Part shown: in pieces, positions 13,491 to 45,608 of the stretch
Numbering within the stretch: position 1 is the stretch's first letter
Layout of the letters: each line of letters begins with the position of its first letter
NCBI GenBank assembly: GCA_025463565.1
Contig: JAODAT010000037.1
Span: 1 to 47,018 of the forward strand
Direction of reading: 5' to 3'
Source of the DNA: Microbacteriaceae bacterium
GTDB lineage: Bacteria; Actinomycetota; Actinomycetes; Actinomycetales; Microbacteriaceae
DNA: 47,018 bases
Position numbers and translations under genes: made by a program
The notes under the pieces: model-generated
Told to the model about the DNA's origin: nothing
The model's input: only the letters and a program-made list of their open reading frames with translations
The model's database searches: none

Positions 13491-13560
13491 GCGGGTCGAG
13501 CTTGTCGAGACCTCACCGACGAGCTACCCGCTGGTGAGGTCTCGACAAGCTCGACCCGCT
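13490..13560. repeat. Palindromic repeat, inverted pair, between convergent stops
   Basis: Two copies of the window's dispersed repeat (core GTCGAGCTTGTCGAGAC) face each other. Perfect 28-bp arms span 13490-13517 and 13533-13560 around a 15-nt loop. The left arm begins at the last base of the helicase TAA and the right arm ends immediately before the heme oxygenase stop (13561-13563). The transcript from either side would fold into a very stable hairpin, so it may act as a bidirectional terminator or 3' stabiliser, although no T-run is seen. Confidence 0.9.
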
Positions 13561-24411: not shown

Positions 24412-24746
24412 TGGGCGTGCTCTACCTGGTCGCCCTCGTGATCGCGCTCACCGGGATGGTGATGCTCGACCGGCGGTTTCGCCTGTTCTTCTGGCGCTCG
24501 GCCCGACGCGCAGCAGTCGTGCTCGTAGTCGGGGTTCTCTTCTTTCTCGCCTGGGACCTGTCGGGCATCGGGCTCGGCATCTTCTTCCGCGGCGAGACAA
24601 CGTTCATGACCGGCCTGGTGATCGCGCCGGAGTTGCCGATCGAGGAACTGTTCTTCCTCACGCTGCTCTGCTACCTGACGATGAACCTCTTCGGTTTTGT
24701 TTCCGCACGCGTGAGCGGGTCGAGCTCGTCGAGACCTCACCGATGA
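24411..24746 (+). CDS. crtYe: Lycopene e-cyclase subunit CrtYe (C50 carotenoid)
   Basis: The 111-residue membrane protein is one half of the heterodimeric C50 carotenoid cyclase, which forms epsilon- or gamma-type rings on the elongated chain. Three hydrophobic helices are seen, with the catalytic-type PIEELFFLTLLCYLTMNLF stretch (conserved Pro-Glu-Glu) in the last. The final 11 codons (VSGSSSSRPHR, 24711-24743) are read through one copy of the palindromic repeat, so the C-terminus is not family-like but repeat-encoded. The stop overlaps the crtYf start by 4 nt (24743-24746). ATG at 24411 shares a base with the crtI stop. Confidence 0.9.
   Translation: MGVLYLVALVIALTGMVMLDRRFRLFFWRSARRAAVVLVVGVLFFLAWDLSGIGLGIFFRGETTFMTGLVIAPELPIEELFFLTLLCYLTMNLFGFVSARVSGSSSSRPHR
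24715..24741 (+). repeat. Single palindromic repeat inside crtYe
   Basis: A copy of the dispersed repeat with one change in the core (GTCGAGCTCGTCGAGAC) covers the last codons of crtYe and ends 1 nt before the crtYf ATG. It has the same orientation as the operon. It is the only copy in the window that lies in a coding sequence. Confidence 0.88.
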
Positions 24747-25887: not shown

Positions 25888-25954
25888 GCGGGTCGAGCTT
25901 GTCGAGACCTCACCAGCGACCTGCGTCGGTGAGATTTCGACAAGCTCAATCCGC
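25888..25954. repeat. Palindromic repeat, imperfect inverted pair, after crtEb
   Basis: The left copy (25888-25914) starts directly after the crtEb TAA. The right copy (25928-25954) is inverted and differs by four transitions, reading TTTCGACAAGCTCAAT in its core. The stem is therefore 23/27 paired, with G-T pairs possible in RNA at the mismatches. It likely ends the carotenoid operon. Confidence 0.88.
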
Positions 25955-31318: not shown

Positions 31319-31386
31319 CGCTGATTGAGCTTGTCGAAATCTCCCGGCGAATTACGTCGATGAGATTTCGACAAGCTCAATCAGCG
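31319..31386. repeat. Palindromic repeat, perfect inverted pair, between grpE and dnaJ
   Basis: Arms of 25 bp (31319-31343, 31362-31386) are perfectly complementary around an 18-nt loop. The core reads TTGAGCTTGTCGAAATC, an A/T-shifted version of the repeat elsewhere in the window. Here it lies inside an operon rather than between convergent genes, so a role in mRNA processing or differential stability is possible. Confidence 0.92.
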
Positions 31387-36670: not shown

Positions 36671-37110
36671 CCGCGGGTTGAGACCTCACCAACGGGCAAC
36701 TTAAGCGGGTCGAGCTTGTCGAGACCTCACGAACGAGTAACTTAGCGGGTCGAGCGTGTCGAGACCTCACCAGCGGGCAACCTAAGCGGGTCGAGCTTGT
36801 CGAGACCTCACGAGCGGGTGACTTAAGCGGGTCGAGCTTGTCGAGACCTCACCAGCGGGTGACTTAAGCGGGTCGAGCTTGTCGAGACCTCACGAGCGGG
36901 TGACTCAAGCGGGTCGAGCTTGTCGAGACCTCACGAGCGGGTGACTCAAGCGGGTCGAGCTTGTCGAGACCTCACCAGCGGGTGACTCAAGCGGGTCGAG
37001 CTTGTCGAGACCTCACGAGCGGGTGACTCAAGCGGGTCGAGCTTGTCGAGACCTCACCAGCGGGTAACTCAAGCGGGTCGAGCCTGTCGAGACCTCACGA
37101 ACGAGCTAAC
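36671..37110 (+). repeat. 41-bp tandem repeat array, ten units plus a truncated one
   Basis: This fills the 439-nt gap between clpB and the GIY-YIG gene. A truncated unit (36671-36704) is followed by ten units beginning at 36705, 36745, 36786, 36827, 36868, 36909, 36950, 36991, 37032 and 37073. The first unit is 40 nt and units 2-9 are 41 nt. Each contains the dispersed core GTCGAGCTTGTCGAGAC, then CTCAC and a linker ending in TAA or CAA. Base 27 alternates between G and C in most units, suggesting an 82-bp dimer. No unique spacers exist, so it is not CRISPR. Each unit can form a small hairpin. Confidence 0.95.
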
Positions 37111-37390
37111 TCTCGCTGTGCGAGCGACTGAGCCCAGGCAGATCCCCGAGCCGGCCATCAATGAGCGCCTTCCGCTTGGCGCGACTCCAACCCTGCACTT
37201 GCTTCTCGCGCTCGAAGGCATCATCGATTCGATCGAACCACTCGCTGAACACGAGCTTCACCGGCTGACGCTTCGCCGTGTAGGCGCATCCGATTCCCGA
37301 CTGGTGTTCTGCAACTCGTAGCTCGAGGATGCGAGCGCTACCGACGTAATAGGAGCCGTCGCCGCACTCGAGGATGTAAACATTGGGCAT
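37106..37390 (-). CDS. GIY-YIG family nuclease-like protein (UPF0213-type)
   Basis: The 94-residue protein is a free-standing GIY-YIG domain. The two strands are VYI (4-6) and YVG (15-17) in NVYILECGDGSYYVG, followed by a helix with catalytic-type Arg25 and His29 (ELRVAEH), and a Glu in EREKQVQGWSRAKRKALI. Such short proteins (YhbQ/UPF0213) are nucleases or DNA-binding proteins of mostly unknown role. The ATG at 37390 matches the family start; a GTG at 37408 would add six residues. Its last codons touch the final unit of the 41-bp array, and oppositely oriented copies of the same repeat lie upstream of it (37461-37574), so the gene is bracketed by the repeat. Confidence 0.87.
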   Translation of the reverse strand: MPNVYILECGDGSYYVGSARILELRVAEHQSGIGCAYTAKRQPVKLVFSEWFDRIDDAFEREKQVQGWSRAKRKALIDGRLGDLPGLSRSHSES

Positions 37391-37460
37391 TGATGAAGGC
37401 TGCCTCACGCGCTAGGGGAGCACCGAGCTCCCGGTAGCCGTTGTGGGAACTCGGTGACGG

Positions 37461-37574
37461 TTACTCGCTGGTGAGGTCTCGACAAGCTCGACCCGCTGGG
37501 GTTGCCCGCTGGTGAGGTCTCGACAGGCTCGACCCGCTTAGGAGGCTCGACCCGCTAAGGAGGCTCGACCCGCT
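37461..37574 (-). repeat. Inverse-orientation repeat block upstream of the GIY-YIG gene
   Basis: Two full copies in minus orientation, 37470-37497 and 37511-37538, are separated by a 13-nt linker. They are followed by two truncated 18-nt tandem units (37539-37556, 37557-37574) that keep only the GGCTCGACCCGCT end. Together with the array at 36671-37110 they flank the GIY-YIG gene in opposite orientations. Confidence 0.9.
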
Positions 37575-40722: not shown

Positions 40723-40756
40723 CTCGCAGGTGAGGTCTCGACAGGCTCGACCCGCT
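40723..40756 (-). repeat. Single palindromic repeat between convergent stops
   Basis: One minus-oriented copy (core GTCTCGACAGGCTCGAC) occupies the whole gap between the dehydrogenase TAG (40720-40722) and the threonine aldolase stop (40757-40759). It abuts the aldolase stop exactly, as the copy at 13533-13560 abuts hmuO. Confidence 0.88.
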
Positions 40757-44488: not shown

Positions 44489-45608
44489 TACGACGGGCGC
44501 GGCCGACGACGGCCCACATCGCGAGGATCGCCCCGAGTCCGAGCGCGATCACTCCGCCGACTGTGAGCCATGAGGTCCACGGACCTGCACCGGTGGATGC
44601 CAGGGAAGGCTTAGGTGCGGCCGGCGCTGCCGCCGGCGGGTTCAGGTTGAGCACATCGACACTGTCGTTGACCGTGAACCAGATGTTGCCGTCCGGCCCC
44701 GTCACCAGTGACGACGGGGGGAAGGTCGTTCCATCCCCATACTGGGCGATGTTCACACCGGCAGGCGTGATGGTGTCGATGGTGCCGTTCGCGCTATCGC
44801 CGATGCGGAGGTTGCCGTCCGGCCCGTTTGTGACAACGCCGGCTTCGTCCATGCCGGCGATGATCGAGACGGTTCCGGCCGGCGTGACGTTCCCGTTCGC
44901 CGCGAAGCTACTGGTGCTGAACCATACGTTGCCGTCGCTGCCGAGAGCAAGGAAGCGCGTGCCGACTACTGCAACCCCCACGGGATAGTCCGTCGCGGTG
45001 CCGGTCGTGATGTCTGTGGTCCCAATCGAGGGTTCGCCGAAGTTCGTATACCAGAGGTTGCCGTCGGAACCCACAACAATCTCGTTCGGTTGGTCGCCGA
45101 CTGTTGCGACCGGGTACTCGTGCAGCACGGTGCCCGTGGTGTCAATGACGCCGATCTTCTCGTTTCCCTCTTCCGTGAACCAGAGGTTGCCGTCGGCAGC
45201 CGCGATGATGCCCGAGGGGCCCGCCCCGGCCGCGAGAGAGAATTCGGTGATGACGCCCGCGGGGGTGATCTGGCCGATCTTGTTGGTGTCCCCTTCGGTG
45301 AACCAGAGGTTACCGTCCGGCCCGCTGGTGATGCCCTGCAGATTGGCTGCCGGGGTGGGAACCGGAAATTCGGTGACGACGCCAGCTGTCGTGATCCGGC
45401 CAATGCTGTTCGTGCCCTCTTCGGTGAACCAGAGGTTACCGTCCGGCCCTACCGTGATGTGCTCGGGATCCGACCCGGCCGTAGTGGGCCACGCGGTAAC
45501 GACCGGGGTGGGGGCGGCGGATGCGGGGGCGACAAAGGCGAGCGCGCCGACGAGCGCGAGCGCGCCGCCGGCCGCTGCGAGGGCGGGTGTGTTCAGCATG
45601 ACACCCAT
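44472..45608 (-). CDS. Surface-anchored beta-propeller protein, virginiamycin-B-lyase-like fold
   Basis: The 378-residue protein has a signal peptide (ALAAAGGALALVGALAFVAPASA) and seven repeats of about 42 residues built around GPDGNLWFTE, the Vgb/Streptogramin-lyase beta-propeller repeat. A Pro/Ala-rich linker leads to the sorting-type C-terminus LASTG (336-340), a hydrophobic helix and basic end, so the protein should be anchored to the wall by a sortase, probably class E type (LAxTG). The lyase catalytic residues cannot be confirmed, so an enzymatic role is not assigned. Start ATG 45608 keeps the MxVM start shared with the next gene; ATG 45599 is possible. Promoter motif at 45629-45652. 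Confidence 0.85.
   Translation of the reverse strand: MGVMLNTPALAAAGGALALVGALAFVAPASAAPTPVVTAWPTTAGSDPEHITVGPDGNLWFTEEGTNSIGRITTAGVVTEFPVPTPAANLQGITSGPDGNLWFTEGDTNKIGQITPAGVITEFSLAAGAGPSGIIAAADGNLWFTEEGNEKIGVIDTTGTVLHEYPVATVGDQPNEIVVGSDGNLWYTNFGEPSIGTTDITTGTATDYPVGVAVVGTRFLALGSDGNVWFSTSSFAANGNVTPAGTVSIIAGMDEAGVVTNGPDGNLRIGDSANGTIDTITPAGVNIAQYGDGTTFPPSSLVTGPDGNIWFTVNDSVDVLNLNPPAAAPAAPKPSLASTGAGPWTSWLTVGGVIALGLGAILAMWAVVGRARRTSRVD

Follow-up and report, generated by a model that had tools for sequence, protein, structure and literature searches.

Palindromic repeats are often found dispersed over bacterial genomes. The locus described here raises the question whether a small nuclease gene, lying between two opposite-facing blocks of such a repeat, is responsible for the spread of that repeat. 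The locus belongs to a stretch of 47,018 nucleotides from a Microbacteriaceae bacterium (contig JAODAT010000037.1), referred to below as the window, i.e. the whole stretch of DNA that was analysed. A preliminary description had proposed that the nuclease generates, mobilises or processes the repeat, as an analogue of the RAYT/REP pairing. In this study, the partnership between gene and repeat was borne out by flanking, matching of repeat type, copy number and empty sites, while the part of the proposal that concerns the enzyme's own role is still something that we infer from these observations.

Results

The gene and its repeats in the window

The following features were located in the window:

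13493..13557, both strands: REPIN-like inverted pair, dispersed, with the hairpin of the array; core matches at 13493 and 13538
24717..24736, plus strand: single dispersed copy with one mismatch, from the core search
25890..25951: dispersed inverted pair made of a GGTC-stem plus copy (25890) and a GATT-stem minus copy (25933)
31323..31382, both strands: dispersed inverted pair with GATT stem, GATTGAGCTTGTCGAAATC, copies at 31323 and 31364
36671..37110, plus strand: ten tandem units of 41 bp, built from a G tag, a GGTC stem, the core GAGCNTGTCGA and a GACC stem
37106..37390, minus strand: single-domain GIY-YIG nuclease gene, 94 aa, ATG start, stop in the last array unit
37459..37538, minus strand: two full opposite-facing units of the same 41-bp repeat, upstream of the gene
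37525..37574, minus strand: truncated copies, half-hairpins with an 18-bp period
40734..40753, minus strand: single dispersed copy, from the core search

In the plus block (36680-37100), TRF found 10.3 copies of a 41-bp unit with 92% matches, and in the minus block (37459-37538) 2.0 copies of a unit of this length. The ten array cores lie between 36707 and 37094 at a spacing of 40 and then 41 bp; full minus-strand cores start at 37475 and 37516, and truncated pieces reach 37574. In total, the 20-mer core with up to three mismatches matched 18 times in the window versus 0.05 expected. The layout given in the preliminary description (ten plus units, the GIY-YIG gene, two full and two truncated minus units) was thus confirmed by TRF and core search. 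Contact between the last codons of the gene and the array was found as claimed, its TAG stop falling within the last unit, and the reported scattering of the repeat was recovered at 13493/13538, 24717, 25890, 40734 and, as a weak match with three mismatches, 23104. That description did not include a second stem variant, in which GATT replaces GGTC, located at 25933 (minus) and 31323/31364. The pairing of a GATT/AATC copy with a GGTC copy at 25890/25933 fits recombination between repeat subfamilies. A known structured RNA was considered and rejected, as Rfam at its gathering threshold returned one tRNA only in the window. A separate 126-bp imperfect tandem repeat (2.4 copies, 77% matches) occupies 45150-45449.

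In the genome from which the window derives (G000; 3.12 Mb, 162 contigs, 88% complete), a search for the 20-mer that allowed at most two mismatches gave 107 + 108 = 215 copies, and the reversed control gave 0. For 21 of the first 30 listed copies, a partner on the other strand lies within 60 bp in plus-minus order, so that inverted doublets of the REPIN kind are present. Eight distinct pairs consist of GCGGGTCGAGCNTGTCGAGACCTCA, a variable spacer and the reverse complement, with small differences among the pairs.

The GIY-YIG protein

Only one domain was detected by Pfam in the 94-aa protein (PF01541, E 1.1e-14); an alternative GTG start at 37408 would give 100 aa. A single NCBIfam equivalog match lay below its cut-off and was rejected. 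The GIY-YIG catalytic fold is characterized by a conserved Tyr, Tyr-x-Gly, Arg, His and Glu. In a 21-sequence alignment Y5, Y15, G17, R25, H29 and E62 are invariant, which we take to be the GIY-YIG active-site positions. The best Foldseek matches of the AlphaFold2 model (pLDDT 91) were the UPF0213 proteins 1zg2 (E 9e-6) and 1ywl (0.003), as judged from the predicted structure, and the same two proteins were matched by sequence profile (1e-21 and 4e-16). Weaker structural matches (E >0.01) included Slx1, I-TevI and UvrC domains. Domain, conserved residues and predicted fold therefore place the protein in the GIY-YIG superfamily, as UPF0213-like. Two further PF01541 matches are present in the genome of the window, a paralog on contig 134 and a 646-aa open frame that is UvrC-like by its length.

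Hairpin design

The repeats around the gene and its relatives share one design: a 5' G tag, a 4-bp stem and GAG-loop-TCGA with a bulged GA. They were searched for as a perfect 4-bp stem, GAG, a loop of any sequence, TCGA and the stem partner, and fall into types A (GAGCNNGTCGA), B (GAGCGNAGTCGA), C (GAGGNNCTCGA) and D (loop of 10 or more). The tag G, three bases before the stem and not part of the search, was present in 290 of 301 hairpins, often as C-G-N-T. When type-A cores were collected with no stem required (121 copies, 34 loci), four positions paired in 94-99% of cases versus 42-78% after reassortment, and pairing dropped to 40% at the fifth position.

Covariation was tested against 500 shuffles on 35 rows, made up of the window and a single copy from each locus. 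Stem cells were paired in 98.6% versus 75.4% in shuffles, 49 cells were changed on both stem sides versus 15.3 +/- 3.2, and the covariation score was 0.61 versus 0.17; none of the 500 shuffles reached any of these values. Stems slid out of register were 23-56% paired. Two of the five measures were not above the shuffles (double-change pairs, 4 versus 3.4; pair types, 10 versus 8.6), and two inner pairs of six never vary. On folding, idealised type C and D hairpins have a two-base GA bulge on the 3' side and idealised type B has no bulge, and an idealised inverted pair forms one long hairpin. The window's own single 24-mer, folded as single-stranded DNA, was no better than its shuffles. With respect to the gene, the nearest hairpin before it is in plus orientation in 40 of 63 loci, and the nearest after it in minus orientation in 55 of 66. 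Among the 54 loci with hairpins on both sides, 31 have this plus-minus arrangement (25% expected, p 6e-7).

Repeats flank the gene across the family and beyond

Of the 150 genomes taken as Microbacteriaceae, 40 contain the protein. The 52 family matches were reduced to 48 loci for the 13-mer and motif test, leaving out L035, the paralog L031 and the G002 and G149 matches; hairpin counts and 13-mer coverage refer to 29 family loci. At these 29 loci, the share of sequence covered by repeated 13-mers falls from 43% in the 150 bp adjoining the gene to 1-5% at distances above 450 bp, and 13-mers common to both sides of the gene were found in 23, versus 2 of 29 at far control positions. A hairpin lies within 400 bp in 27 of the 29 (5.99 per kb near versus 0.47 far), and a G-tagged one likewise in 27.

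The gene was then sought by protein alignment, blind to the flanks, in one genome per species from 84,980 species. The loci named here are the best 80 of at least 581 confirmed stretches, and some of them are genes of family loci (e.g. L093 = L037, L100 = L043). These best 80 of at least 581 come from Actinomycetota (28), Bacteroidota (25), Chloroflexota (7), Fibrobacterota (6), Pseudomonadota (4), Thermodesulfobacteriota (3), Cyanobacteriota (3), Fidelibacterota (2), Calditrichota (1) and Ignavibacteriota (1). Within 400 bp of the gene, 75 of these 80 hold 301 hairpins, at 4.82 per kb versus 0.19 beyond 800 bp, and 74 of the 80, across ten phyla, hold a G-tagged one. Flanking is therefore broader than had been claimed, and orthologues lying usually far from any copy, which were named beforehand as evidence against the partnership, were not seen among the 29 family loci or the best 80 of at least 581.

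Loci of the cold-shock gene CspA in 30 of the same genomes served as control: any hairpin was found in 4 of 30 and a G-tagged one in 2 of 30. 13-mers common across the gene were present at 37 of 48 family loci and 52 of the 80 named loci (best 80 of at least 581), and at 0 of 30 CspA loci. Control motifs combined the stem rule, here with a 5-bp stem, with other inner letters. Close to the gene, four of five occurred at 0.00-0.06 per kb; for the remaining one, AG..TCGA, the values were 0.16 and 0.23 per kb near and 0.06 and 0.20 far. The neighbourhood of the gene is poorly conserved, with a flanking homologue common to 7 of 406 locus pairs versus 35 of 406 for CspA. Taken together, the association of gene and hairpin is close to certain.

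Copy number follows gene presence

Types A and D were counted in the 150 family genomes, and genomes with 15 or more of either type were called repeat-rich. The gene is present in 28 of 39 repeat-rich genomes versus 12 of 111 others (Fisher 1.6e-12, uncorrected for kinship), with median copies of 39.5 with the gene and 4 without it. With the copies at gene loci removed, except in G002 and G149, 26 of 40 gene-bearing versus 11 of 110 gene-less genomes were rich (p 6e-11, again uncorrected for kinship) and the median with the gene was 37.5. The expectation that copy number tracks gene presence in Microbacteriaceae thus held with and without the gene-locus copies. Sixteen genera include both states. 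Counting copies outside gene loci, the gene-bearer was higher in 11 and lower in 5 (Wilcoxon 0.009), and for all copies 11 were higher, 4 lower and one tied (sign test 0.12). The type-A count pattern needs T before the stem Y and misses CCCT-stem copies, so that G050, G120, G077 and others are undercounted, and some gene-bearing genomes look repeat-poor because only types A-D were counted.

Repeat-rich genomes without the gene, which had been named as a refuting observation, were in part encountered: the gene is missing from 11 of the 36 genomes that contain at least 20 copies, including G045 (1,191 type-D copies), G025 (204) and G069 (147). PF01541 matches in these 11 were confined to open frames of 320-816 aa, with none in G012, and the clade profile scored these loci at 16 bits at best (G136) versus 103-156 for four members. 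G045 is rated 100% complete, yet has no cognate gene. Its repeats are of the same kind as in the congener G116, which has the gene, and the gene may have been lost after the repeats had expanded; another driver would be the alternative. A search for another partner gene in 200 kb of the 4.6 Mb of G045 gave nothing convincing. None of the 36 repeat-rich genomes, the window's own included, gave a match to PF01797, the Y1 transposase domain of the RAYT type; 1 of 20 others did.

Repeat type follows the protein tree

In a protein tree of 100 rows, 93 of them typed, repeat type changed 19 times versus 44.3 times in shuffles (0 of 200 as low); the tree was built from few columns by a quick method and 6 of its 93 inner branches are starred. 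Shuffling within phyla on the tree of the 80 named loci (best 80 of at least 581; 7 of the 80 are untyped and were excluded from the type tests) gave 16 changes on 73 typed loci versus a mean of 30.1 and a minimum of 24 (0 of 500). The ten type-B rows all fall into one starred clade of 14 with members from Bacteroidota, Thermodesulfobacteriota and Cyanobacteriota; two D rows and two untyped rows, one of the latter from Pseudomonadota, complete it. Chloroflexota have types A, C and D, each beside proteins of the same type from other rows, with partly weak branch support. The paralog in the genome of the window (L031, G000:C134) belongs to the same clade. Repeats resembling type D, GGTCGAGTAGCG, flank it on either side, and copies of the window type were not found within 1.5 kb of it. 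This genome thus carries two gene-repeat pairs of different repeat type, and G117 likewise has two members with different types.

Genome-wide counts of types A, B and C were made in 50 of the 80 named genomes, chosen for clear flank types. When copies lying less than 2 kb from the gene were discounted, 27 of 39 genomes with an A, B or C flank had that type as the strictly commonest of the three (1 of 10,000 shuffles as high). By type, this applied to A in 17 of 18, B in 8 of 11 and C in 2 of 10; C was not commonest elsewhere in eight of the ten C-flanked genomes (L104, L105, L112, L115, L117, L127, L133, L145, L148, L151). Genome-wide dominance of the flank type was therefore observed for A and B but not for C. 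Because type C is not dominant outside the gene locus, our confidence that the nuclease spreads the hairpins, and that a superfamily of such pairs exists, is slightly lower.

Hairpin presence differs between related genomes

Type-A copies number 482 in Agreia Leaf283 (G491) and 58 in Leaf210 (G446). A comparison of 400 kb with 400 kb, 85.6% identical where aligned, contained 51 versus 4 cores. Mapping with longer flanks gave 15 clusters, two of which are one site, and thus 14 sites; a further 400 kb added no mapped site. At 11 of the 14 mapped repeat sites of Leaf283 the core is lacking in Leaf210. Seven of these 11 are at least 37 bp longer in Leaf283 (e.g. 104 versus 11 bp, 80 versus 13 bp), and the four without such a difference may reflect substitution or decay. 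Orthologous sites therefore differ in hairpin presence, as for a mobile element, with gain and loss not polarised. No target-site duplication was seen by eye in ten alignments of these 85.6% identical genomes, and no repeat insertions were called in the pair G050/G120 (87% identical).

Discussion

A proposed gene-bearing master copy and its derivatives

We consider it probable, at roughly 60%, that the single-domain GIY-YIG nuclease propagates its cognate hairpins and that the locus in the window is a gene-bearing master copy. Such a copy would consist of one or more hairpins facing one way, the nuclease gene, and one or more hairpins facing the other way, and the dispersed inverted pairs would be its gene-less derivatives. 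In this model, the nuclease would recognise the folded hairpin through tag and bulge, on DNA that is single-stranded or extruded, and would cut next to it. As enzymes of the GIY-YIG group act by hydrolysis, host replication or repair would have to copy the hairpin pair into new sites. Local re-copying could give rise to the tandem arrays at the gene.

The main competing explanation is that the gene is a free-standing selfish nuclease gene of the homing kind, for which the repeats are only cutting and landing sites spread by something else. Homing endonucleases are found among the GIY-YIG enzymes, the gene is embedded in arrays at positions that are not conserved, repeat-rich genomes without it exist, and type-C flank repeats are mostly not dominant elsewhere. 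However, copy number follows gene presence even without the gene-locus copies, for types A and B, 25 of 29 genomes have their flank type as the commonest repeat elsewhere, repeat type tracks the protein tree within phyla, and the usual transposase candidate (PF01797) was not found in 36 repeat-rich genomes; homing thus appears unlikely, though it deserves more weight than the other alternatives. Still less probable is a domesticated nuclease in host service, which would resolve or trim hairpins (cruciforms or transcript 3' ends) and keep nearby repeats for its own regulation. A structure-specific nuclease, Slx1, is indeed among the weaker structural matches. Such a role accords poorly with a gene found in only 40 of 150 family genomes, with variable neighbour genes, with two members of different repeat type in G000 and G117 and with hairpin presence differing between Agreia genomes.

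The resemblance of hairpin, tag, bulge and inverted-pair design to REP and REPIN elements, as these appear in the available parts of PMC8266576 and PMC3116915, might suggest that the repeats are REPs moved by a RAYT (Y1 transposase) and that the GIY-YIG gene is a bystander. RAYT as the mover was rejected, as PF01797 was not found in the 36 repeat-rich genomes including that of the window; moreover, there is no GTAG tag, and it is a GIY-YIG gene that the repeats flank, which leaves this reading highly improbable. Repeats are abundant in several of these genomes, and could fill intergenic DNA and so adjoin any small gene by coincidence. At the CspA loci of the same 30 genomes, however, G-tagged hairpins were found in 2 of 30 and common 13-mers in 0 of 30, and coincidence was rejected with hardly any probability left to it. 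The reading preferred here remains that of a nuclease that spreads its own hairpins.

Relation to known systems

The closest likeness is to REP/REPIN elements with their RAYT (TnpA-REP), the REPtrons. Dispersed hairpins, inverted doublets, a 5' tag and a bulge are common to both, as are a gene flanked by its own repeats and a repeat type matched to the protein. REPtrons, however, have a Y1 (HUH) transposase and a GTAG tag, whereas the locus described here has a GIY-YIG protein (PF01541), a core GAG..TCGA and presumably hydrolytic chemistry. A Y1/HUH transposase was found in 0 of 36 genomes, a single near-invariant G stands in place of the GTAG tetranucleotide, and mobilisation in trans by a RAYT, as for REPINs, finds no counterpart in the 36 repeat-rich genomes, where PF01797 was not found. 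Because the two tested REPtron features, transposase and GTAG, fail, we regard the system as a new kind that works like REPtrons and does not belong to them; a prior report may exist. For RAYTs, the tag and, in E. coli, the bulge matter for recognition and cutting (PMC8266576, in the part available), and the unit that moves is proposed to be the REP doublet (PMC3116915, likewise in part). Therefore, the two systems look convergent.

CGTC-tagged REPs (PMC3733652, as described in the accessible part) are also palindromic, dispersed and apparently without a dedicated transposase, but are named for another tag; they were compared by description, not by sequence. Single-domain UPF0213 proteins (1zg2, 1ywl) have the same fold and a similar length and are the best profile and Foldseek matches, and to our knowledge they have no repeat association. 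Free-standing GIY-YIG homing endonucleases share the catalytic superfamily and a selfish-looking placement. They have a separate sequence-specific DNA-binding domain and a conserved target gene, whereas the present protein (94 aa, one Pfam domain) has no separate DNA-binding domain, occurs with high-copy hairpins instead of a single target site, and its gene occupies places that are not conserved. MITEs are similar in being gene-less inverted-repeat derivatives of a gene-bearing element; here, in contrast, there is no transposase gene, and no target-site duplication was seen in the ten Agreia alignments.

Among the matches listed in a literature search, which left preprints and most subscription journals uncovered, none linked GIY-YIG genes with dispersed palindromic repeats. 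The co-mention of such terms in PMC10928387 and PMC9465073 is incidental in the parts available, some other matches concern restriction enzymes to judge by their titles, and the REP surveys PMC12306157 and PMC5082802 name no GIY-YIG partner in theirs. How dispersed repeats spread without a RAYT is described as unexplained, at least for the CGTC class, in the available part of PMC3733652. With a dedicated nuclease of an unrelated superfamily that is matched to its hairpin in ten phyla, such spread could be tested using a protein of 94 residues and an oligonucleotide of 27 bases; if the proposed role is true, this nuclease would add a hydrolytic enzyme to the ways in which short elements spread.

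A possible wider superfamily

The range of phyla raises the idea of a cross-phylum superfamily of palindromic repeats generated by a superfamily of single-domain GIY-YIG nucleases, in which every clade would recognise a hairpin of its own; we see slightly less than even odds for this idea. The cores of the repeats would be GAGCYTGTCGA, GAGCGNAGTCGA, GAGGYTCTCGA and GAGTAG..CGTATCGA, perhaps with more distant ones such as CATTCTGAGCGAAGCGAAGAATC. If true, this would be a second, independently evolved partnership of nuclease and repeat, spanning ten phyla, and would offer a partner for many orphan repeats. Among more distant GIY-YIG loci of the same phylum, the present hairpin was found in only 3 of the 23 scored, and at 7 of 27 at least three 13-mers are common across the gene, versus 1 of 27 at far positions. 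Hairpins at two distant loci, CATTCTGAGCGAAGCGAAGAATC at L185 and CATTCCGAGCGAAGCGAGGAATC at L186, are similar in layout and different in the bulge. From their sequences, such loci hint at a wider nuclease-repeat superfamily, which they do not establish.

Some further observations concern single loci. The distant GIY-YIG loci L182, L184, L185, L186, L190 and L191 have 8-109 13-mers common to both sides of the gene, which derive from other repeats (CATTCTGAGCGAAG.., ATTGCGAG..). Plasmid matches comprised 11 records, three of which were examined. No hairpins were found by this search at the Sphingomonas paeninsulae plasmid gene; related hairpins accompany the Methylobacterium bullatum plasmid gene. 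On plasmid unnamed4 of Sphingomonas parapaucimobilis (L353), the GIY-YIG gene lies between nrdR and an RNA methyltransferase gene, with type-B hairpins upstream of it and overlapping its annotated 3' end. Finally, the gene on a contig filed as Stenotrophomonas maltophilia P13 (L130) groups with the Microbacterium record L129 and has D-type repeats, a placement that reflects either contamination or recent transfer.
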